IMG/VR virus record: IMGVR_UViG_3300019757_000014 | Location: 1 to 24,503 of that record | Origin: a virus | Strand: one strand, 5' to 3' | Length of the DNA: 24,503 nucleotides | Part shown: one piece after another, positions 3,180 through 13,231 of the stretch | How positions within the stretch are numbered: position 1 is the first letter of the stretch | Layout: the number at the start of each line of letters is the position of its first letter | Notes under the pieces: generated by a model | Told to the model about the DNA's origin: nothing | The model's input: only the letters and a program-made list of their open reading frames with translations | Database searches by the model: none | Program-made: the position numbers and the translations under genes

Positions 3180-3597
3180 ATGGCAGAGTTATTAATAGAA
3201 AAATATCGTAATCAAGCAATTCATATGATTGAAGAATGTACTGGTGAAAATATTACTGAAGAAGAAATTGAAAAATTAAATGGTATTATTAAAGATAACT
3301 TTAAAGATACTGAAATTAAATTCACTAATACATACAATAAGACTTCTAAAAATTTTCCTTTATTAACTGTTATTGATAATATTTTAGCCAAAGAGCCTAT
3401 TATTACTGGCAATGGAACACTATTTAATCGTGAAGATAAAGGTGGAAAAAATATCACTGGTAGCTTTGTTGATATGCTTTTAAAGACTCGTAAAGTTTAT
3501 AAAAACAAAATGTTCAAAGCCCAGAATGATAAAGATAAAGCACTTGAAGAAGTAATGGACATGTTTCAAAAAGTATTTAAAGTACTAGCAAATGCGT
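3180..3597 (+). CDS. DNA polymerase exon 1 (fingers up to motif B)
   Basis: 139 codons plus one base. The first 75 residues are unrecognised. Residues from about 77 (TGNGTLFNREDKGG) through LKTRKVYKNKM resemble the stretch that lies between motifs A and B in family B polymerases. The exon ends inside motif B at ...KVLANA plus a T. If not spliced, translation stops at TAA 3597-3599 immediately after the junction, giving a 139-residue product without active-site residues. Confidence 0.8.
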
Positions 3598-6500
3598 AAA
3601 TTGTAATGCGCCTTATATAAGTAATTATATAAGCAAATTTCTTTAATTGCTGGAAACTCTTAACATGTAGTGGTGAAGACAATCAGCAGCGAAGCCTATT
3701 GCGTAATAGGAACGTTCAACGACTATCCCTTTAAGGGAGTACATTCTAAGTAGAATGGAAATAGGAAATATCTCATAGAGATAATGATATAGTCTGATCT
3801 ATATGGAAACATATAGCTATACGGTGAAGCCTAACGACCTTTCACAAACATGTATGATTATGGAGCGCTCGGCCAACAGTCCTTTATATTCCATGATAGA
3901 CAAAGTGCAGCAGCAGTTACTTTATCGGGAGTATCGATTATTACAACTCTTATTCAAAATTTCGAATCATTCCTTGCGGATAATTGGGAATTCGAATGTT
4001 ATGGAGATGTAATTGACTTCATTTCAGAAGTAAATATTACTGAGATGGAATTTGACTCTATTGTAGAAAAAGATAAAACAGTAGAAGAAGTCTATGAACG
4101 ACTGATCTCTAAAGTTAAATTAAAAGAATCCGATAAAGAGCTAGAAGAGTTAATTCTTTCTATCTTAGAAACATATGACGAAGAAATTTTAAATCGTATC
4201 TATTATAAGAATAATCTTTATGAATTCTTTGAAGAACCTGTAATGATAGAGTTAATAGGAGAAATTCTAGAATTTGATATTCCTTCAGGAAATCCTGGAG
4301 ATATCGAGCATGTAAGTATCAAAGAGAAACTTGATGAATTTAATGATATCATAAGAGATTATGTTGTATGGACTAGAGTATATGAAGACCGTTTAACATT
4401 CGCAGATACTACTACTAGAAAAGCAGTATTAGTAGTTGATACTGACAGTACTTTCTTATTCTTAGATCCATTCGTTAAATTTGTCGAAAAGTTTTATGAT
4501 TATGATACATCAGTACAAACTAACTCAATTACGGTATGTAACATTCTTATTTTTACATTATCGTTTCTTTCTGAAACTGTTTTAAGTGAGTGGTGTGATA
4601 AATCCAATATCGAACTAGATAAAAAACATCTTATAAATTTAAAGAATGAGTTAACAAAATAGCTCCTTATGTAAGTAATTACATAACGCAAACTTCTCTA
4701 ACTGTCTGGAAACTCTTAACACATAATGGTGAAGACAATCAGCAGCGAAGAACCTTTTTATAAGGTTAACGTTCAACGACTAGTGCATAGCACGTACAGC
4801 CAAGTGGTGAGCATTACGCTCTTAAATGGAAACGGGAAGCTTCTTATGTTTTTATAAGAAGAAGATATAGTCTACTCTGCGCGGAAATATGTAGCAGTTC
4901 ATAAGAGAACGGCGCAGGACTAGCGACCCTGTGTGAATATAAGGTTTTGTATTCTAGAATCATGTTAACAAAGAACAAGAAGAGCTACGCGGGTAAACTT
5001 TCTTATGCTCGCGCTAAATCTCTCTAATTGTCTGAGAACTCCTAACATATAATGATGAGGACAATCAGCAGCGAAGTATCCTTTATTACTTAAGTATAAG
5101 GATAAACGTTCAACGACTAGTCGAAAGACGTACAGCCAAGTGGTGAGCATAGCGCTCTTAAATGGAAACGGGGGACTCCTAGAGATAGGATGAAGATATA
5201 GTCTACTCTGCATGGAAACATGTAGCAGTCTAGAAATTTTAGACGGTTATAATTTAACGAATTATAACGAATACAAATGATAATAAGCTCACAAGAAGGT
5301 AATCTTTTAGATCCACCAAAGCTTGATATGAAGGGTTAATAACATGGCCCCTTAGACTAGTGATAGTCTAATGAAAATCTCTTTAATTGCTGGAACCCCT
5401 TAACATGTTGTGATGAAGGCAATCAGCAGCGAAGACTCTATTCTCCGAAGTAAAGGAGAAGAAATTGTGTCAGTAAAATTTTGGACAGACGATAAATTAC
5501 AGTGGATACGCGATAATATTAGTTTATCCAATAAGGAAATAGGAAGTCATTTTGATAAACCAGTAGATGAAGTTAAGCGAATTAAAAGCTTGCATAAGAT
5601 ATCTAAGAAATCTAAAATCGTTTTAGGTGAAGACGAACGATATTTTAAGGTCACAGACTGTGAAGGATATTTTATAACTGAAAATGGTGTAGTATTCAAT
5701 GCTGAGAAAATGAATAAAATGGCAGTGACGATGAATACGTACGGTTATCCTTGTGTTATTATTAAGAACAAACGAGTACAAAAGACAGTTTTAATACACA
5801 GAGAGTTAGCAATGCATTTATTGGAACGACCTAAAGACTTTGACAAAGTTAAATATGATGCACGCCATATTGACGGAGACAGACTAAACTATTCTATAGA
5901 TAATATAGAGTGGATAAATAAACATAAACATGCCAGCAACCACTCTATTGGTGTCAGTAGAAATCTTAAATCATCCGAAGAAGATATCATTTCTATTTGT
6001 GAGCAACTAGAAAGCGGCGTGACTCAAAAGAAGATATCGAAACAATTCGGGATCGGCATAACGACCATACAGTCAATAAAATCTGGTAAAACGTGGAAAC
6101 ACATTTCCAAAAATTATAATTTCTGAGAATAGAGTAACGTTCAACGACTATCCCGACAGGGAGTAGAATTCAAGTGAATTCGAAAAAGGAGACATCTCAA
6201 TGAGATGAAGATATAGTCTAGACTTATACGAAAATATAAGTAGTTCTTAATAAAGAACGGCGCGGATTAACAACCTAGCGTGAATATACTCGTTGGATAT
6301 AAAGAAAGTAAAAGTTAATAAGGTCTCTCAAAATTATTTTAAAGAGATCCTAACAGAAGACATTTTAAAGAGTCCTGAAATTAATTCCAGTCATATCATC
6401 GGTAAATTTATTACTTATGAGAAAATGATCAGAGATAGCATTGAAGAGGCTAGTGCTGACTTTACTAGACCTGCTAAATTCTCAGGAATGAATGCTTATA

Positions 6501-6919
6501 AATTTCCTTATAGAATGGAAGTATTTCGTGGTAGTATTATTTGGAATGAACTTTATTTCGATGAAGTAATATTACCTATGGACGCTGTAAAGATTATTAA
6601 ATTAAAAGCTGAAACTGAAGAAATCTTTAATAAAATTATCGTAGATAATGAAGAATTCTTTAGTGATGAAGATTTAGAAACTCTTGATAAGATTAAAGAT
6701 TTTGTATTTAAAGATGAAGAATTAGGACATTATGGTTTTACTAGATTTTGTATTCCTAATACTAAAAATGCATTTCCTAAGTACTTAATTCCTTTTGTAG
6801 ATGTAGATGTAATCGTTGATGATAATGTTCGATCTGCATTAATCCTGCTTCAAAGCATTGGATTAGAGACATTAGAAGTTAAAGGTATTAATAGGTATAG
6901 TAATATTATTAAATTTTAA
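3180..6919 (+). CDS. Family B DNA polymerase, C-terminal part, interrupted by four group I introns
   Basis: Joined exons 3180-3597, 3857-4651, 4945-4994, 5280-5336 and 6293-6919 give 648 residues. Motif B appears as KVLANAYYGALG (K134, N138, Y141, G142), motif C as VVDTDST (D334, D336), and the thumb-proximal KKxY motif as TKNKKSYAG (about 413-421). PPKLDMKGLDIKK follows. These identify the polymerase half of a family B replicase. The exonuclease domain and motif A (DxxSLYP) are absent. The start at 3180 has a strong AGAGGAGA site, so this looks like the C-terminal subunit of a split polymerase whose other part lies elsewhere. Joins rest on frame, motif continuity and guide-sequence pairing. 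The join at 5336/6293 is the least supported by P10. Confidence 0.85.
3598..3856 (+). ncRNA. Group I intron 1 in DNA polymerase (ORF-less, 259 nt)
   Basis: P1: exon GCGU pairs with intron GCGC (3608-3611), with the expected U-G pair at the splice site, and A3598 pairs with U3607. The 3-prime exon start AUUA can pair with UAAU just before that guide, forming P10. The core is recognisable: TTAATTGCTGGAAAC (3643-3657), GACAATCAGCAGCGAAG (3678-3694), a hairpin at 3695-3710, P7 strands GTTCAACGACTA (3714-3725) and GATATAGTCT (3786-3795). The last intron base is G3856. The insertion lies inside motif B of the polymerase. Confidence 0.85.
3857..4651 (+). CDS. DNA polymerase exon 2 (end of motif B, motif C)
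   Basis: The exon begins by completing YYGALGQQSFIFHD, the second half of motif B. It carries an extended palm with VVDTDSTFLFLDPF, where the two aspartates (334 and 336 of the joined protein) bind catalytic metals. It ends at ...LKNE plus a T. Between motifs B and C lies a long acidic helical insert (about residues 190-300) compared with short polymerases such as T4 gp43. Unspliced, reading would continue to TAG 4660-4662. Confidence 0.85.
4652..4944 (+). ncRNA. Group I intron 2 in DNA polymerase (ORF-less, 293 nt)
   Basis: P1: exon GAGU, followed by intron UA, pairs with UAGCUC (4659-4664), giving U-G at the splice site. The 3-prime exon start UUUUGU is exactly complementary to ACAAAA (4653-4658), a six-base P10 that fixes the join. 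The core has GACAATCAGCAGCGAAG (about 4734-4750), GTTCAACGAC (4771-4780) and AGATATAGTCT (4863-4873). The last base is G4944. Its 3-prime half is nearly the same as that of intron 3. Confidence 0.85.
4945..4994 (+). CDS. DNA polymerase exon 3, 50-nt micro-exon with KKxY motif
   Basis: The exon encodes FLYSRIMLTKNKKSYAG when joined in frame (16 codons plus two bases). TKNKKSYAG corresponds to the conserved T-x-KKRYAG motif after motif C of family B polymerases, where the lysines contact the template-primer. It is flanked by introns on both sides, and its identification depends on the motif and the P1/P10 pairings. Confidence 0.8.
4995..5279 (+). ncRNA. Group I intron 3 in DNA polymerase (ORF-less, 285 nt)
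   Basis: P1: exon GCGGGU pairs with GCUCGC (5007-5012) with U-G at the splice site, and the next A-U pair extends it. UUAU before the guide can pair with 3-prime exon AUAA (P10). The core has CTAATTGTCTGAGAAC, GACAATCAGCAGCGAAG (5061-5077), GTTCAACGAC (5108-5117) and AGATATAGTCT (5194-5204). The last base is G5279. From 5129 to 5172 it matches intron 2 (4793-4836) almost base for base. Confidence 0.85.
5280..5336 (+). CDS. DNA polymerase exon 4, 57-nt micro-exon
   Basis: Nineteen codons: IISSQEGNLLDPPKLDMKG. The end, PPKLDMKG followed by LDIKK from the next exon, fits the KG-(L/F)-(D/E)-hydrophobic pattern seen in the thumb region of family B polymerases. An in-frame stop (TAA 5337-5339) follows at once in the intron. 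Confidence 0.75.
5337..6292 (+). ncRNA. Group I intron 4 in DNA polymerase, with HNH endonuclease ORF (956 nt)
   Basis: P1: exon GGGU pairs with GCCC, with U-G at the splice site, in the local hairpin AAGGGUUAAUAACAUGGCCC. The core has CTTTAATTGCTGGAAC, GGCAATCAGCAGCGAAG, then a stem ACTCTATTCTC (starting about 5434) closed by GAGAATAGAGT (6125-6135). The ORF sits in the loop of this stem. P7 strands are GTTCAACGAC (6139-6148) and AGATATAGTCT (6209-6219). The 3-prime end is placed at G6292 because the join gives KGLDIKK; P10 support is weak, so this boundary is less certain. Confidence 0.8.
5467..6126 (+). CDS. HNH homing endonuclease in intron 4
   Basis: 219 residues from GTG 5467, chosen because AAAGGAGA ends seven bases upstream; the frame stays open back to 5410, but that part is intron core. 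Residues 1-45 (WTDDKLQWIRDNISLSNKEI) form a helix-turn-helix of the kind found in phage intron endonucleases. The HNH nuclease spans about 90-158, with H111 (LIHRELA), then ARHIDGDRLN (H134, D136, D138, N141), N146 and IEWINKHKH. Residues 170-213 (GVTQKKISKQFGIGITTIQS) form a second helix-turn-helix like an intron-encoded nuclease repeat. The layout resembles I-HmuI-type enzymes. The stop TGA (6124-6126) lies in the stem closing the loop. It would nick the intronless polymerase gene to spread the intron. Confidence 0.85.
   Translation: MSVKFWTDDKLQWIRDNISLSNKEIGSHFDKPVDEVKRIKSLHKISKKSKIVLGEDERYFKVTDCEGYFITENGVVFNAEKMNKMAVTMNTYGYPCVIIKNKRVQKTVLIHRELAMHLLERPKDFDKVKYDARHIDGDRLNYSIDNIEWINKHKHASNHSIGVSRNLKSSEEDIISICEQLESGVTQKKISKQFGIGITTIQSIKSGKTWKHISKNYNF
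6293..6919 (+). CDS. DNA polymerase exon 5 (C-terminal thumb)
   Basis: The last 208 residues begin LDIKKVKVNKVSQNYF, directly completing the KG motif of exon 4. The rest is a mixed helical domain (AKFSGMNAYKFPYRM, then an acidic stretch) and a C-terminal beta-rich part, GHYGFTRFCIPNTKNAFPKY. No ribosome-binding site precedes TTG 6293, so this segment is not expected to be translated on its own. The dCMP deaminase follows after 16 bases. Confidence 0.8.
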   Translation: MDIKKVKVNKVSQNYFKEILTEDILKSPEINSSHIIGKFITYEKMIRDSIEEASADFTRPAKFSGMNAYKFPYRMEVFRGSIIWNELYFDEVILPMDAVKIIKLKAETEEIFNKIIVDNEEFFSDEDLETLDKIKDFVFKDEELGHYGFTRFCIPNTKNAFPKYLIPFVDVDVIVDDNVRSALILLQSIGLETLEVKGINRYSNIIKF

Positions 6920-6935
6920 TAAAGGTAATAAAGAT

Positions 6936-7427
6936 ATGAGTATATCACATACAATAGAAAAAGATTACCGCCTAAATTTAAAGCTACAGTCAATGATGGA
7001 AATAGCTGTTATTGAATCTAAATTGTCCACATGTGAAAAATTAAAAGTTGGTGGAATATTAACTTCTAATGATTTTACTATTAAGTCATCTGGATGTAAT
7101 GGAGCACCTAGCGGTTATCCACACTGTAAAATTCTCAATGAACCTGATAATCATTCTGCAATTTTTGAAGTACATGCTGAAAATAATCTTTTGAGTAGAT
7201 GTAATTGGATACCTGCTCAAAACGAATCGTCATATATCTTTTTAACTCATTTGCCATGTATGTCATGTGCTCATATCATTGTAACTAATGTTAATCGTCT
7301 TAGAATTAAAAAACTATATTATAACGATGTATATATAGACAATGATTCTAGCTATGATAAATATAGGAAACCTAGCAGTGTGGTTAGTTTCTTAAAAGAT
7401 TCAGGAATTGAGGTTATTAAATTATGA
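6936..7427 (+). CDS. Deoxycytidylate (dCMP) deaminase
   Basis: 163 residues. The zinc-dependent cytidine/dCMP deaminase signature is complete: H80-A-E82 (zinc ligand and catalytic glutamate) and P107-C108-M-S-C111. GCNGAPSGYPHC (53-64) matches the substrate-side loop of dCMP deaminases. It should convert dCMP to dUMP, feeding thymidylate synthesis or a dUTP pool. The length is normal for the family. It lies downstream of the DNA polymerase behind AAAGG and overlaps the next gene by an ATGA junction, so the two are probably translationally coupled. Confidence 0.88.
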   Translation: MSISHTIEKDYRLNLKLQSMMEIAVIESKLSTCEKLKVGGILTSNDFTIKSSGCNGAPSGYPHCKILNEPDNHSAIFEVHAENNLLSRCNWIPAQNESSYIFLTHLPCMSCAHIIVTNVNRLRIKKLYYNDVYIDNDSSYDKYRKPSSVVSFLKDSGIEVIKL

Positions 7428-8002
7428 AAGAAAATAGCCCTTCAATGGAAATAGCACACAATAGACTACTTATTAATAATATACAGAAAAAAATTGAAAA
7501 GACTTTAGACAGTTTTGTTGGCTTTACAGAATCGAAATCTACATTAAAAAACATCGACGAAAACATTAAAGACGTTTTATCCGAAAATTCAGATAAGGGT
7601 TTAATTAAACCTTCTTTTAGCTGTGATACTTCTTTACATAAAGTTACTTGGAAAGAAATTTATCCTAATTTTATAAAAAGAAATATTGCACGACTAATTA
7701 TTTGGATTCTTAGGGTGAGAAGTAAATCGTTGTCGGTGCATGAGAAGGACATTAAGTGGTATCATTATCTTTTACCTTACTTTCATTCAGTCTCAGTACA
7801 TATAAAAGATTTAGAAATAGACGAGGACGACGAATGTGAATTATTCAGCGAAGATTTATTGCAGTATATTGTCGAAAAGACTTATGCTAAGAGACATTGT
7901 TCGTTAAAAGTTCCTCACAACGTAGTAAATACAGACGTTTCTTTTTCTCCAATAAAAAGTGTAGAAAGTATAGAAATTAATACCATTATAACAAATTCAT
8001 AA
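7424..8002 (+). CDS. Unknown protein coupled to dCMP deaminase
   Basis: 192 residues, starting in the ATGA overlap with the deaminase stop, with GAGG upstream. No family is recognised. The N-terminus looks helical (RLLINNIQKKIEKTLDSF). The middle has a basic-aromatic stretch (WKEIYPNFIKRNIARLIIWI) that is amphipathic rather than a clear membrane span, followed by WYHYLLPYFHS and an acidic run (EIDEDDECELF). The gene is followed by a small hairpin, so the transcription unit may end here. Confidence 0.7.
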   Translation: MKENSPSMEIAHNRLLINNIQKKIEKTLDSFVGFTESKSTLKNIDENIKDVLSENSDKGLIKPSFSCDTSLHKVTWKEIYPNFIKRNIARLIIWILRVRSKSLSVHEKDIKWYHYLLPYFHSVSVHIKDLEIDEDDECELFSEDLLQYIVEKTYAKRHCSLKVPHNVVNTDVSFSPIKSVESIEINTIITNS

Positions 8003-8032
8003 TTTTAAATATTAAAACAACATTATATCGTA

Positions 8033-8054
8033 GATCGATCATGGTGAATCGATC
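8033..8054 (+). terminator. Possible weak terminator or regulatory hairpin
   Basis: GATCGAT (8033-8039) pairs with ATCGATC (8048-8054) around an 8-nt loop, followed by GCTTTTAGGCTTTT. The T tract is broken, so this may be an attenuator or a spurious hairpin. It lies 66 bases before the SSB-like gene. Confidence 0.35.
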
Positions 8055-8119
8055 GCTTTTAGGCTTTTAAGGTAGTTTAAAAGTTATTTCTAGCTAACTA
8101 TTGAAAGGTAACAAAGAAA

Positions 8120-8854
8120 ATGGCAAATTATCCACAGAAAAAATCAGTTTATACAGACTCTTACAACTTCTTTAACTCGTCATGTAGTGTTCTACAACTT
8201 GGATTTGTTAATGCTTCTGGATATATGAAAGTTAGTCCAGTAAATGAAGAGTTTCGGGGTAAAAAAGCTAAACGTGGCGCTCAAATGTACAATTACGATG
8301 AGCAGATTTTTGTTTCATTTAATATAGAAGATTTGATTATTCTTAATCATATTGTTGATAGTATTGAAGATGGTTCTATTGAAAGTTATACCTTCTCTCG
8401 TAAAATCAATAACTCTATTAAAAATCTTCATATTGGTCGTAATTTAGATGCCGATGATGGTGAAGAAGTAGGTCTCGATGGTCCAATTCAATTTTACTTT
8501 GAGGATTTAGATCGGGAAGATCCTGATGGCGATCCTATTATTGAAATTTGGTTTGAGTTCGAAAAGAATAAAGAGCTAGGTATTTATGTAGAATATGAAG
8601 CTTTAAAAGCATGGATTGGTGAGGCTGTATCTATTTCTACTAAAACAGGGAAACACGCTCTAGAGTATGCAAAAGCTCAAACACAATCTAAATCAAGTGG
8701 AAATGGTGGAAGCCGTAGTCGTAAAAACGATGATGAAGATGAAGAGGAAAATGAACGGCGTCCTAGTCGTAAACGTCCAACAAGTAAGAAGAGTAAACCT
8801 TCTAACGACGATGACGATCCTGCTTTTAATCCAGATGACGAAATTCCATTTTAA
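8120..8854 (+). CDS. Single-stranded DNA-binding protein with bacterial SSB-type tail
   Basis: 244 residues. About residues 1-165 form a beta-rich domain (NFFNSSCSVLQLGFVN through IEIWFEFEKNKELGIYVEYEAL) that I cannot assign confidently to a named OB-fold family. Residues 180-244 are a low-complexity linker of Ser/Gly/Arg/Lys followed by acidic runs, ending NPDDEIPF. That end matches the conserved DDDIPF/DDDLPF tip by which bacterial SSBs recruit repair and replication proteins. Folded core, disordered linker and acidic amphipathic tip together are the SSB layout. It is the only gene between a hairpin and a strong terminator, so it has its own transcription unit. The ribosome-binding sequence GAAAGG lies about 12 bases upstream. 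Confidence 0.75.
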   Translation: MANYPQKKSVYTDSYNFFNSSCSVLQLGFVNASGYMKVSPVNEEFRGKKAKRGAQMYNYDEQIFVSFNIEDLIILNHIVDSIEDGSIESYTFSRKINNSIKNLHIGRNLDADDGEEVGLDGPIQFYFEDLDREDPDGDPIIEIWFEFEKNKELGIYVEYEALKAWIGEAVSISTKTGKHALEYAKAQTQSKSSGNGGSRSRKNDDEDEEENERRPSRKRPTSKKSKPSNDDDDPAFNPDDEIPF

Positions 8855-8870
8855 TGTAAGATAATATTTA

Positions 8871-8907
8871 AGGGATAGTGACTTTATTGTCACTATCCCT
8901 GTTTTAT
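8871..8907 (+). terminator. Rho-independent terminator after SSB-like gene
   Basis: A perfect 12-bp stem, AGGGATAGTGAC (8871-8882) with GTCACTATCCCT (8889-8900), has a TTTATT loop and is followed by GTTTTATT. Confidence 0.88.
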
Positions 8908-8935
8908 TAATTTAATAAAGGATAAAAAAAGAATA

Positions 8936-9388
8936 ATGATTGATCTTAAAGAAATTGATAATTTAATAAATAAATTCAATACAATGTCACCAGAGAATTT
9001 TGAAGAATATCTCCTTTCATTGAGAGAGGCTATACATCTTAATGACAATAAATTTAAAGAAATAATCAGTATTACTTTGAAAAATAATCCAGATGATACA
9101 GATCCTCCTATAACACTAGAAACTTCTAGAATATCTGAACATTTTTGTATTATGGAAAAAGATTTAACTCCTTTTAACGGTTGGAAAAAGGGAATTAATT
9201 TAACGCATATTAAATCTGGCACTAGAATAACTAATATTGCGGTAAGGAAAAGTAAAGCATTATTCTTAATTAGTGAACTTGAAAATTGTGGAATTAATTG
9301 GGACTTTACAGATTATAATGACTTTTCCTCTCAGTCAAATGAATTGTTAGAAAAAGGAATATCTATTGCTAGAAAACTAGAAAGGTAA
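8936..9388 (+). CDS. Unknown 150-residue protein
   Basis: No family is recognised. The N-terminal half is helical (LKEIDNLINKFNTMSPENF). The centre has EHFCIMEKDLTPFNGWKKG. The C-terminus, SKALFLISELENCGINWDF, is again helical. The start at 8936 has AAAGGA somewhat far upstream (about 13 bases). It sits three bases before the HAD phosphatase gene, so the two probably form one operon bounded by the terminators at 8871 and 10096. Confidence 0.7.
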   Translation: MIDLKEIDNLINKFNTMSPENFEEYLLSLREAIHLNDNKFKEIISITLKNNPDDTDPPITLETSRISEHFCIMEKDLTPFNGWKKGINLTHIKSGTRITNIAVRKSKALFLISELENCGINWDFTDYNDFSSQSNELLEKGISIARKLER

Positions 9389-9391
9389 AAT

Positions 9392-10066
9392 ATGAACGAT
9401 TCATATGAAGTAGCCGATCAAAAAACAATTAAAGATCGATTACGAAATATTTCGACATCTTTTTTCAATAATGAGCGACGCTTACTAGTTTGTGATCTAG
9501 ACGATGTACTAGTAAATATTACATGCAAATGGGCTAAGTTAGCTGTCAAAAAATATAATCTTGATCCAATTTTAGCTGAAGAAAAAACAGTAATTGATCG
9601 TTCTGAATATTATGTAGAAAGTTTATTGGGCATTAATAAAGAACAATTTATGCATATTTATCGTGATGAAAAATTTTATGATGATTTAATTCCCACTAAG
9701 TTAGGTATTGCCGTTGCTAAATCGACACATGATATGAATATTGATTTAGTTATAATCTCTCATCTTACTGAAGAAAATATTGTAGGTAAACGAAGATTTT
9801 GTGAAAAGTTCTTTCCAAAAGCAAGACATATTTTAGTACCTCACACTGTTAAAAAGTCTTCAGTAATTAATAAAGAAGGTCTTGACTATTGTACTTTTAT
9901 AGATGACCGTGCTGAAAATATTGAGGATGTAGTTTTGAACACACAATCGTTCGGTAAAGAGTTTATGTTACCTAAATTTGGTCACAATCAGGAAATAAGT
10001 CGAGGAGCGTTATTAAACATTCATGAGAACTCATCCAAACTAACTTTTTATGAAAATGTGCTATAA
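9392..10066 (+). CDS. HAD-family 5'(3')-deoxyribonucleotidase-like phosphatase
   Basis: 224 residues. Motif I is LLVCDLDDVLVN, with D35 as nucleophile and D37 as acid/base. Motif II is VIISH (S123), motif III is served by a lysine in KRRFCEKFFPKARHI (about 133-147), and motif IV is TFIDDRAENI (D171, D172). The order and spacing fit the C1-capped nucleotidase branch of the HAD superfamily (NT5C-like), which removes phosphate from deoxynucleoside monophosphates. Polynucleotide phosphatases share this fold, so the substrate is not certain. With a dCMP deaminase nearby, a role in adjusting the dUMP/dTMP pool is plausible; this is inference. AAAGG precedes the start at 9392. A terminator follows. 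Confidence 0.78.
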   Translation: MNDSYEVADQKTIKDRLRNISTSFFNNERRLLVCDLDDVLVNITCKWAKLAVKKYNLDPILAEEKTVIDRSEYYVESLLGINKEQFMHIYRDEKFYDDLIPTKLGIAVAKSTHDMNIDLVIISHLTEENIVGKRRFCEKFFPKARHILVPHTVKKSSVINKEGLDYCTFIDDRAENIEDVVLNTQSFGKEFMLPKFGHNQEISRGALLNIHENSSKLTFYENVL

Positions 10067-10095
10067 CATGTTATTGATATGATAATATACACTCG

Positions 10096-10131
10096 AAATA
10101 AGGGATTTCTATGATCCCTTATTTTTTTTTT
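10096..10131 (+). terminator. Rho-independent terminator before the RNA polymerase gene
   Basis: Stem AAATAAGGGAT (10096-10106) pairs with ATCCCTTATTT (10114-10124), followed by T residues to 10131. An ATG in the loop (10111) is in frame with the next gene but belongs to the hairpin, not to a start. Confidence 0.88.
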
Positions 10132-10146
10132 ATGAAAGGAATTTTT

Positions 10147-11523
10147 ATGAAAGTTGATTTGTTTGATATTTCTAAATTTGTAAGTTTAAACAACTTACAA
10201 GCAGTAACTAATCCTATATATTTAAATCCAGATAAAACACCAACTGAAGATGGTATTTTTAGTTATAATATATTTGGGTTCCCAGGGTCTAGAGAAAGAA
10301 AAGAAAACTTTGCGTATATTGAATTAAATGCACATGTATTTCATCCGTTTATTTATAAACAATTAGTCACAATGGAACGAAAGATTCAGTATATAGTAGA
10401 AAGTTCTAAGAATTATCTAGTTAGTAAAAGTGGTGAATTGATTGAAGATGAAGAAAATGGATACACTGGTATAGAATGGTTATATAAAGTATGGGATAGT
10501 ATTAAATTTAAAAAAGGTGATTCCGAAACAAGAAAAACCAAACTATCTATTTTAAATAAGCTTTCTAAGAATGAGATATTTGTAAATAAATGGATAGTCA
10601 TGCCAGCTATGTATCGTGATCTAAATTTTGCCAATTTAGGATCTGGTCGTATTAGTATGGAAGAGATTAACGAGTATTATATAAAGATACTAAATACTTC
10701 AAAAGCTCTAGATAGACCTGATGCTATTAGTTTCTTAACTAATTCTACTCTTTTAAGAATGCAAGGAGTACTAGTAGAGTTATATGAACATTTAATATCA
10801 AAACCTACTGGTAAAAATGGGTATGTTCGCCAATATATGATAGGTAAAAATATCGACTATTCCGCAAGAGCAGTTATCAGTACTACTAACGCTGGTCGTG
10901 CAGAAACATATAACGACATGGAGATTCCTTTTTCATATATAGGATTGCCTATCCATATTATATGCGGTTGTTTTAAGCCATTTGTTTTAAAAGCAATAAG
11001 AGAAATAGTTGGAAGTAAATTAGAAGGAAAAACTAAATTACTTTATGGAGGTAAGGTTATCTCAGGAGATTCCATTAATGCAGAATCTTTTTCCGACTCA
11101 GCAATAGATAAAATGATTACTCTTTTCGAAAAATCTCAAGAAGATCGATTCAATACGATATATATTGAAGATGAAGAAGGTAAGAAAAAAGAGCTAATGA
11201 TGTATTCTAAAACATTAGAACGCCCTATGACTATTGCTGATTTACTTTTTTTAGCATGTCACAGAATTATTGAAGATAAACATGTAGTAGTAACTCGATA
11301 TCCAATTATTTCTCATCAATCGACTAACCCTTTAAAGATTAAAATAGTATCTACTGAGAAAACAATGACAATGGATTTTGATAAGACTGCGCCTGAAGCT
11401 GGAAAGAAATCATTCTATAGTAAGATTGAGAATTATCCAGATATTAATAGCAAACATCTTTGGCGAGATGCAGCTATCTTTGATAATAACTTAACCCATG
11501 CATACGGTGCTGATTTCGACGGA
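10147..11523 (+). CDS. RNA polymerase beta-prime exon 1
   Basis: 459 codons from MKVDLFDISKF to ...YGADFDG. Unspliced, the frame runs eight codons into the intron (STFLHASK) and stops at TGA 11548-11550, losing the third catalytic aspartate. The zinc-binding insertion between the IFGP-like and GHIEL-like segments of bacterial beta-prime is missing here; only about 12 residues lie between them. Confidence 0.85.
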
Positions 11524-13231
11524 TCAACTTTCTTACACGCTTCAAAATGAGTTAAAGGAAGTAAAGAACTTCTTATAAATACATAATCCGCAATTAATTT
11601 AAATTTTTAATTAACAGTATATTGGAATTATCAAATATTAAAAACATTAAAAATAAATTAACTGGAGAAGATTATGCCGCCCTTAGTAGAACAAAAAAAT
11701 ATTATTGAACGAGTAGAAAAATTATATAACAACGAATATAGGCTACTTTCCAAATACACAGGTGCAAAAGAGGCTATAACATTATATCACATTTCTTGTG
11801 GTCACACATACGTAATCAAAAGAGCTAAGACTTTCTTAAATGAAGGTGGAGGTAAATGCCCTAAATGTCGTCCTAAACCAACAACTCCTAATACTCGAAG
11901 TAAAGGTGTTTCTGAAGAGACAGTTATTAAGAGAATTAAAGAGCAAGTAGGCGACGAATATTCATATTTAGGTGGTTTCAAAAGAATGAATGACAAGGTA
12001 TTAATGCGTCATAATGTCTGTGGACATGAATGGAATATAACTCCTCATATGTTTCTAGGCTCTAAGCAAAGAAGGTGTCCTGTGTGTGGGAATAAAGCTA
12101 GAGGAAGTCATCTAAGAGGAAAAGATTACTGTCAAACGGCCCTCGACTCTCAGTCCTATGGTGGAGACTATGAATGGCTAGAAGAATACAATAATGATAA
12201 TAAAGAAAAACTTCTAATCAAACATAAATCATGCGATAGAACTTACAGAGTTCGTGTTAATGACTTTCAGCAAGGCTATCGATGCCCCCATTGTTCTGAA
12301 GAAGCTAAAGAATCATATAACTCAATGTTAATTAAAAATCTTCTTAAAGAAAATAATCTCAAATTTAAGACTGAAGTTAAATTCAAAGACTTAAAGCATA
12401 AAAATAGTCTTAGAGTGGATTTCTTTATTAAAGAATTAAATCTTTTAATTGAATATGATGGAATGCAGCATTTCAAACCCAGTGGATTTATTGCAAATAA
12501 TGATTTGAAAAAAACAAGAAAACGTGATTTAATTAAAAATCAGTGGGTAAAAGAACATGAAATATCTCTTTTACGAATCCATTATAAATTAAAAGAAAAA
12601 GATTTAAAGAATATAATCCTAAATATATCCTGTGAAGAAGAATTAATTAAACTCGTTAAAAAATATAATTTATACTACGACAATAATACTACTAAAATTT
12701 ATAATGAAGAAAATTACTACAAACTTATCTAGAAGTGACAATATAATGGCCGTCGCTAAATCCCTTTAATTGCGGGAAAATCCTTAGAGCTTTAACTACC
12801 AACTATAAATAGTAATATATTATAGGGTTAAGATTAACTATCTTAAGTATGGTAAAAACGTTAAAGATTGGACAATCCGCAGCTAAGTATCCTTTATCAT
12901 ACAAGTATAGGATAAAAGTTCAACGACTAGTGTTTACACGTACCTTTTAAATAAAAGGGAAATAGGGGACTCTTATACACACAATATAAGATGAAGATAT
13001 AGTCTAGTCTATATGGAGACATATAGAAGTTCTTAAAGAACGATATAGAATTAATGAATCTATATGAATACAACGGATCAAGTTTCAATCATTGGTTTAT
13101 TTACAAAAGAAGCCAATGATCAAGCAGATAAACATATTAAATCAATATCTAACTTAGTTAGAACAGATGGATCTCATGTTAGAAATATTTCTAATGAAGC
13201 AGGTCTATCTCTTTATATGATGTCAAAATAA
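10147..13231 (+). CDS. Phage multisubunit RNA polymerase beta-prime, N-terminal subunit, split by a group I intron
   Basis: Joined exons 10147-11523 and 13076-13231 give 510 residues. The start is ATG 10147, behind GAAAGGAA. Landmarks of bacterial beta-prime appear in order: DGIFSYNIFGFP, AYIELNAHVFHPFIY (GHIEL region), NGYVRQYMIGKNIDYSARA (like GRFRQNLLGKRVDYSGRS), GLPIHIICGCFKPFV, VVVTRYPIISH, and the catalytic GADFDGDQVSI restored by splicing. The three aspartates hold the active-site magnesium. The protein ends about 50 residues later, so the rest of beta-prime must be another polypeptide, as in phiKZ-like and AR9-like phages. Whether it belongs to the virion or the non-virion polymerase cannot be told. 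The next gene overlaps its stop by one base. Confidence 0.88.
11524..13075 (+). ncRNA. Group I intron in the RNA polymerase catalytic motif, with endonuclease ORF (1552 nt)
   Basis: The core lies downstream of the ORF: CCTTTAATTGCGGG (about 12763-12776), GGACAATCCGCAGCTAAG (about 12878-12895), P7 strands GTTCAACGAC (12918-12927) and AGATATAGTCT (12995-13005). The guide CCGUCG (12750-12755) pairs with exon CGACGG (11517-11522), so the 1.2-kb ORF region lies between the two strands of P1. The last base is taken as G13075. The 5-prime boundary is set after A11523 because this restores DFDGD in frame; it puts A instead of the usual U opposite G12749, so the exact join needs testing. Confidence 0.8.
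11674..12732 (+). CDS. Intron-encoded zinc-module / EDxHD (Vsr-like) homing endonuclease
   Basis: 352 residues, start behind GGAGAA. Three related modules each begin with a short strand and CGH or similar and end with CPxC: C42/H44/C62/C65, C116/H118/C135/C138, and C187/C204/C207 (Asp188 follows the first Cys and no histidine is obvious). They probably bind zinc and DNA. The C-terminal part (about 212-305) is nuclease-like: ESYNSMLIKNLL, TEVKF, LRVDFFIKELNLLIEYDG, MQHF, then RKRDLIKNQWVKEH. Candidate catalytic residues are E234, D249, E260, D262 and H266, fitting the EDxHD or Vsr-like group known from phage introns such as I-Bth0305I. The last about 40 residues are Asn/Tyr-rich. It should cleave the intronless RNA polymerase gene. 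Confidence 0.8.
   Translation: MPPLVEQKNIIERVEKLYNNEYRLLSKYTGAKEAITLYHISCGHTYVIKRAKTFLNEGGGKCPKCRPKPTTPNTRSKGVSEETVIKRIKEQVGDEYSYLGGFKRMNDKVLMRHNVCGHEWNITPHMFLGSKQRRCPVCGNKARGSHLRGKDYCQTALDSQSYGGDYEWLEEYNNDNKEKLLIKHKSCDRTYRVRVNDFQQGYRCPHCSEEAKESYNSMLIKNLLKENNLKFKTEVKFKDLKHKNSLRVDFFIKELNLLIEYDGMQHFKPSGFIANNDLKKTRKRDLIKNQWVKEHEISLLRIHYKLKEKDLKNIILNISCEEELIKLVKKYNLYYDNNTTKIYNEENYYKLI
13076..13231 (+). CDS. RNA polymerase beta-prime exon 2
   Basis: 51 residues beginning DQVSIIGLFTKEANDQADKH, equivalent to the DQMAVHVPLSxEAQxEA stretch that follows the catalytic aspartates in beta-prime. It ends SLYMMSK at TAA 13229-13231. There is no start codon or ribosome-binding site of its own, so it depends on splicing. 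Confidence 0.8.
   Translation, partial: DQVSIIGLFTKEANDQADKHIKSISNLVRTDGSHVRNISNEAGLSLYMMSK

Follow-up and report, generated by a model that had tools for sequence, protein, structure and literature searches.

The question raised by this locus is what a phage protein may do that ends almost as bacterial SSB ends and carries in front of that end a core unlike SSB. The window, i.e. the whole stretch of DNA analysed (24,503 nucleotides, IMG/VR virus record IMGVR_UViG_3300019757_000014), contains on its plus strand an ORF at 8120-8854, which starts with ATG, encodes 244 residues plus a stop and has NDDDDPAFNPDDEIPF as its C-terminus.

The gene and its parts

The following features were assigned to the gene and its immediate surroundings:

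8104..8108, plus strand: likely ribosome-binding site AAAGG, 11 nt 5' of the ATG (a reading of the sequence only)
8120..8854, plus strand: whole gene, 244 aa plus stop (ORF reading)
8150..8665, plus strand: ordered core, residues ~11-182, predicted to be Whirly-like with two beta4-alpha repeats (AlphaFold2, 11 rows; structure matches)
8666..8833, plus strand: charged linker, residues 183-238 (AlphaFold2 model and alignment)
8834..8851, plus strand: SSB-type tip DDEIPF, residues 239-244 (sequence; ORF-end count; 16-row tree)
8871..8900, plus strand: terminator-like stem-loop directly 3' of the gene, 12 pairs, T-rich tail

A stem-loop search over 6900-10200 yielded two such structures against 0.8 expected. 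Just 5' of the gene, at 7990-8027, there are two matches to AACA-N6-TA, the late-promoter form of AR9.

The first-pass annotation had described an SSB-like protein with a C-terminal DDEIPF close to the bacterial DDDIPF. Both descriptions stand: the tip follows a disordered charged linker, and the architecture as a whole is that of an ordered core, such a linker and a conserved SSB-type tip. In the AlphaFold2 model the last helix extends to about residue 192, and the remainder of the linker is of low confidence or disordered.

The same annotation held that the core does not look like host SSB, and this is confirmed by the library searches, in which neither Pfam SSB nor any other core model was matched. 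None of the Pfam, PHROG, NCBIfam or PADLOC models matched the core of the window protein, the weak matches being confined to the low-complexity tail; the weak PHROG matches phrog_2544 and phrog_15004, both from tail regions, fall in linkers and were dropped. Pfam SSB (PF00436) was unmatched by the protein and by the whole window record, and bacterial SSB was touched through the tail only (E 0.46-0.87) in a phmmer comparison with PDB sequences. The Pfam Whirly model (PF08536) matched none of the 16 family members with E values allowed up to 1, and none of 20 records when the limit was raised to 10. The gp32 model (PF08804) matched none of 17 records including the window, which is a weak test given control genomes that lacked a strong positive. 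Profile searches of PDB sequences returned matches at chance level only.

A diverse family with a recurrent tip

Relatives of the window protein surfaced only via phage phiR1-37, a two-row profile and the synteny with RNA polymerase genes. A direct tblastn search with the protein against 50,697 phage records gave nothing credible, and no relative was found in a single-protein scan of viral contigs or in two scans of bacterial and archaeal genomes. Among nine selected records, the g176 protein of phiR1-37 proved to be a relative (E 7.5e-6 within that genome, 20% identity over residues 7-81); it ends in DDDIPM, and its overall identity to the window protein is low (18-20% by alignment). The two-row profile led to the loci L017 and L018 (36% identity over residues 10-180, end KDDIPF), and the linker of L018 is rich in Gly, Arg and Asp, unlike that of the window protein. 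Sixty viral loci around the gene of the RNA polymerase beta' subunit were then fetched, and an iterated profile over their ORFs added L023 (DDDIPY), L025 (DDDIPM), L022, L030, L024 and L027. When 40 whole records were searched with profile A5, 16 of them gave a match. Profile A8 matched three of 40 in a second record set, which has 17 records in common with the first: AR9 and PBS1, both in the linker and tip only, and L101, which was found later and ends in GDDDDE.

In the 16-row alignment the best conserved positions are H179 (15/16), T12 and Y57 (14/16 each), the D at position 58 (13/16) and Y59 (12/16). The window protein shares with the g176 family the similarity to the core profile, the Y-D-Y motif and the His motif of the C-terminal helix. 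These proteins form a diverse family, of which g176 of phiR1-37 is a named member and the core of which is recognised by no Pfam, PHROG or NCBIfam model. Directly 5' of the Whirly-like gene, four distant phages carry an acidic ORF of 250-265 aa, the four being similar by eye (L091:673-1428, L092:608-1408, L094:600-1382 and L095:653-1420).

The tip itself was counted in a set of 1006 distinct ORFs that start with ATG and are 100 aa or longer, taken from the window and the loci L021-L080. Only five of these end in [DE][DE][IL]P[FMY], and all five belong to the tip-protein family: the window protein, L021 (same ending as L018), L023, L025 and g176 (L066). Since the only such ends among the 1006 ORFs are those of five members of one family, the tip is more than chance and is selected. 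The five nearest members, the window protein included, end in DDEIPF, KDDIPF, DDDIPM, DDDIPM and DDDIPY behind linkers that are unlike; between the window protein and L018, identity amounts to 64 of 166 aligned positions in the core, 13 of 58 in the linker and four of six in the tip. In a more distant set, L091, L092 and L095, the ends are DELPFS, DEIPFQ and GEIPFN, with one residue beyond the Phe. The tip-labelled rows of the 16-row tree fall into two groups, the five nearest members (85/88, under the star threshold of the tool) and L091/L092/L095 (98/97). The other eight rows are without the tip: L022, L030, L089, L090 and L093 have no similar end, and L024, L027 and L094 end in EETSPF, SIPGIN and VESLF, respectively. 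The absence of the tip from part of the family weakens the case for recruitment through it.

Predicted fold of the core

An AlphaFold2 model built from the single sequence had a mean pLDDT of 37.5 and was discarded. With an alignment of 11 sequences, most of the core reached a pLDDT of about 90 and was modelled as beta-beta-beta-beta-alpha, twice, followed by a disordered tail. The OB fold that had been proposed for residues 1-165 is not found in this model, which consists of two beta4-alpha repeats and is Whirly/PUR-like; as far as a prediction can decide in place of a solved structure, the OB fold is ruled out, the best matches being Whirly and MRP. In a VIA-align comparison with solved structures, seven plant Whirly entries lead (Z 13.2-14.2), followed by three MRP1/MRP2 entries (Z 11.9-12.3) and PURA/Pur-alpha (Z 6.7-7.8); all other matches are at Z 5.4 or below. 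The best Foldseek match is 2gia_B (MRP1/MRP2, E 9.9e-5), with PURA second. Binding to single-stranded nucleic acid is a property of Whirly, MRP and PUR proteins, in agreement with published abstracts, so that the predicted fold, as the earlier annotation had required of a DNA-binding protein, would belong to a class of single-strand nucleic-acid binders.

The core is thus predicted to have a Whirly-type fold, a prediction that rests on a shallow alignment of 11 rows. We claim the fold and not membership or common descent, because the Pfam Whirly model is unmatched and the profile matches to PDB sequences are at chance level. The net charge of the core is about -14 by a simple count, which is unusual for a DNA binder and weakens the reading of the protein as one.

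When predicted viral proteins were searched with the model, the top match was an unnamed entry of 301 aa, the same length as g176 (E 1.9e-12); below it ranked uncharacterised proteins of myoviruses and two short proteins of Bacillus phage W.Ph. The latter, G9B1W3 and G9B1V9 in BFVD (132 and 134 aa; E 7.2e-4 and 1.4e-3), indicate that Whirly-like proteins may be commoner in phages.

Genomic neighbourhood

The window is part of the genome of an AR9/phiR1-37-like jumbo phage, which has a multisubunit RNA polymerase of its own. Comparison of the beta' and polymerase proteins places AR9/PBS1/Goe21, BpSp, LPJP1, the Staphylococcus jumbo phages and phiR1-37 closest to it among named phages. Portal and sheath genes are also present in the window, and the neighbours of the tip-protein gene are the following:

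3180-3599, 3850-4662 and 6293-6919: pieces of a B-family DNA polymerase (library matches)
5410-6126: HNH endonuclease ORF, between the last two DNA polymerase pieces
6936-7427: dCMP deaminase (library matches)
9392..10066, plus strand: HAD / deoxyribonucleotidase-like gene, in L018 also found between the tip protein and beta'
10111..11550, plus strand: N-terminal part of the phage RNA polymerase beta' subunit, the conserved downstream landmark (phrog_2986, E 6e-91)
11674-12732: homing-endonuclease-like ORF, after the N-terminal beta' ORF

The three pieces of the DNA polymerase look as if the gene were split by intron-like insertions, and the annotation of AR9 joins its beta' gene from three pieces and has endonucleases within it. 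The dCMP deaminase and the deoxyribonucleotidase-like gene, together with the kinship to PBS1 and phiR1-37, suggest that the DNA of the window phage contains uracil.

In all seven members for which this arrangement was recorded (the window, L018, phiR1-37, L023, L025, L022 and L030), the gene lies some 0.8-2.4 kb 5' of beta' on the same strand. Four of these seven were retrieved with beta' as bait, which biases the set, and in more distant members the gene had another genomic position.

Proposed function

We consider it probable that the gene encodes a phage single-stranded DNA-binding protein, in which a long disordered linker joins a Whirly-like core to an SSB-type tip that recruits replication, recombination or repair enzymes. 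Such a protein would coat single-stranded phage DNA during replication, and its tip would act as a tethered hook through which these enzymes reach the strand; bacterial SSB works in this way from a core that is unrelated. Computation yielded the ORF and its family, the conservation of the tip, the fold as a prediction, and the position amid genes for replication and RNA polymerase; from there we infer the binding of single-stranded DNA, the high abundance in the window phage and the recruitment via the tip. This reading is favoured by the Whirly/MRP fold prediction, by the five tip ends among 1006, by the replication and RNA polymerase neighbours and by the expression of g176, which according to the available text of PMC4848604 has one of the highest TGR values in phiR1-37. 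That source also calls g176 a virion structural protein. In the available text of PMC13030884 g176 was not found.

The host factors that might be captured are ones that read a terminal Phe. Among the near relatives the last residue is F, M or Y, which suits a phage-encoded partner no less well than such capture, and one clade has an extra residue after the F; this suggests that the partner differs between phages and makes us lean towards a phage-encoded one. The partner may thus be encoded by the phage or by the host, with a slight lean to the former. There is a precedent in phage HK620, where, in the text available, the SSB tip NDYPPF recruits the phage protein Sak4 (PMC5928155).

A further partner scheme was suggested by phage T7, in which the tips of helicase and SSB are read by one receptor. 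A helicase-like protein of LPJP1 (L012:43-1518) ends in LLQEDDIPF, and its AR9 homologue ends in DSGIPF. Among 13 helicase frames, LPJP1 has EDDIPF and AR9 SGIPF, and those of BpSp and three Staphylococcus phages end in DF; no such end was seen in the other seven of the 13, which include frames from the genomes of the tip-bearing relatives L018, phiR1-37 and L023. Since the helicase frames of tip-bearing relatives are without such an end, a tip shared by helicase and SSB was dropped for the window.

The closeness of DDEIPF to DDDIPF, together with the very high TGR of the phiR1-37 relative (PMC4848604, available text), could also point to a decoy, in line with the titration idea of the first-pass annotation: protein made in excess would occupy, with its tip, the pockets in which host RecQ, PriA, exonuclease I, RecO or similar proteins bind the SSB tip, and these would stay away from phage and host DNA. 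Such titration is unsupported and we hold it to be unlikely, since three of the five nearest members have M (two) or Y (one) as the last tip residue, and since a pure decoy would not need the predicted single-strand-binding fold that carries the tip. To the same low degree we credit a role mainly with the phage RNA polymerase, in which the protein would open or hold single-stranded promoter DNA and so act as a cofactor comparable to N4 SSB. The position just 5' of beta' in seven members speaks for it, and the sources, as far as available, hold precedents: the AR9 non-virion polymerase reads template-strand promoters and can start on single-stranded DNA (PMC9209446), N4 SSB activates late promoters (PMC5312081), and the initial description of plant Whirly was that of a transcription factor (PMC2377264). 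However, distant members lie elsewhere, replication genes are neighbours as well, beta' served as bait for part of the set, and the AR9-type promoter pattern AACA-N6-TW shows no enrichment, with 51 matches in the window against 59.8 expected.

Slightly less probable again is a role in virion structure or packaging, with the protein serving chiefly as a particle component associated with DNA. The annotation of g176 as 'phage structural protein', in line with its naming in the available text of PMC4848604, weakens the reading as a single-stranded DNA binder. The same note is carried by the beta' subunit g178, however; an abundant DNA-bound protein can enter virions without a structural role, and fold and tip point to DNA transactions. 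E. coli uracil-DNA glycosylase reads the SSB tip. We also weighed, as the least probable of all and very doubtful, that in jumbo phages with uracil in their DNA a Whirly-fold protein replaces host SSB and its tip holds the host glycosylase in a non-productive state, which would be the missing glycosylase control; for phages such as phiR1-37 no Ung inhibitor has been found, according to the available part of PMC10303552.

Comparison with known systems

With bacterial SSB (PF00436) the window protein has in common the order of parts, i.e. an ordered core, a disordered linker and an acidic tip ending in I-P-F. It differs in having no match to the SSB domain, in a core predicted to be Whirly-like and not OB, and in the variable last residue (F, M or Y) of its relatives. 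If our reading is true, evolution has placed the SSB tip, as a portable module, on a core of Whirly type, and there is in jumbo phages a family of single-strand-binding proteins unrecognised by Pfam, PHROGs and NCBIfam.

The predicted fold of the core resembles the plant Whirly entries 4koo (Z 14.2, 153 residues at 4.7 A), 4kop (Z 14.1, 129 residues at 2.6 A) and 3n1h, and the trypanosome MRP1/MRP2 entry 2gia (Z 12.3). Unlike these, the phage protein has no match to Pfam Whirly and adds a linker and an SSB-type tip, and identity is only 9-13%. Whirlies are called plant-specific in the available text of a review (PMC9070903), and no paper on a phage SSB of Whirly fold was found in the open-access literature as far as its text was available. 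A phage protein of this fold would change where the fold is sought. The phage T5 homologue of PC4 (4bg7), a phage protein of the PC4 class, is a weak match (residues 87-182, Z 2.8) and covers at most one of the two repeats, because the target has 88 residues.

The HK620 protein is a phage SSB with an SSB-like tip needed for partner recruitment (PMC5928155, available text), and the comparison with the window protein concerns the tip. In AR9/PBS1, gp161 (phrog_27562; L102:2474-3499, homologues L103-L107), an unannotated protein present in 18 AR9-clade phage records, likewise has a long linker behind its core. In AR9 and three Staphylococcus-phage rows this linker contains an internal DDDIPF or DDDLPF, which is absent from the linkers of BpSp and LPJP1. 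Homology of gp161 is unsupported, with hhalign probabilities of 2.4% and 0.6% and a profile match that covered linker and tip only; it is possibly an analogue of the window protein.

The closest comparison is with phiR1-37, whose g176 has a homologous core by profile, the same place before beta' and the same type of tip (DDDIPM). Unlike the window record, which covers 24.5 kb, phiR1-37 also encodes a canonical SSB, the only one in 17 records: g269 (L108:1178-1510) is an OB-type SSB of 110 residues, which ends in GGIVCL and lacks linker and tip. Because of g269, g176 is not the sole single-strand-binding candidate of that phage. With g269 tip-less and g176 tip-bearing, OB core and SSB tip sit on different proteins of phiR1-37, and if our reading is true these two halves of bacterial SSB form a natural separation that is directly testable.
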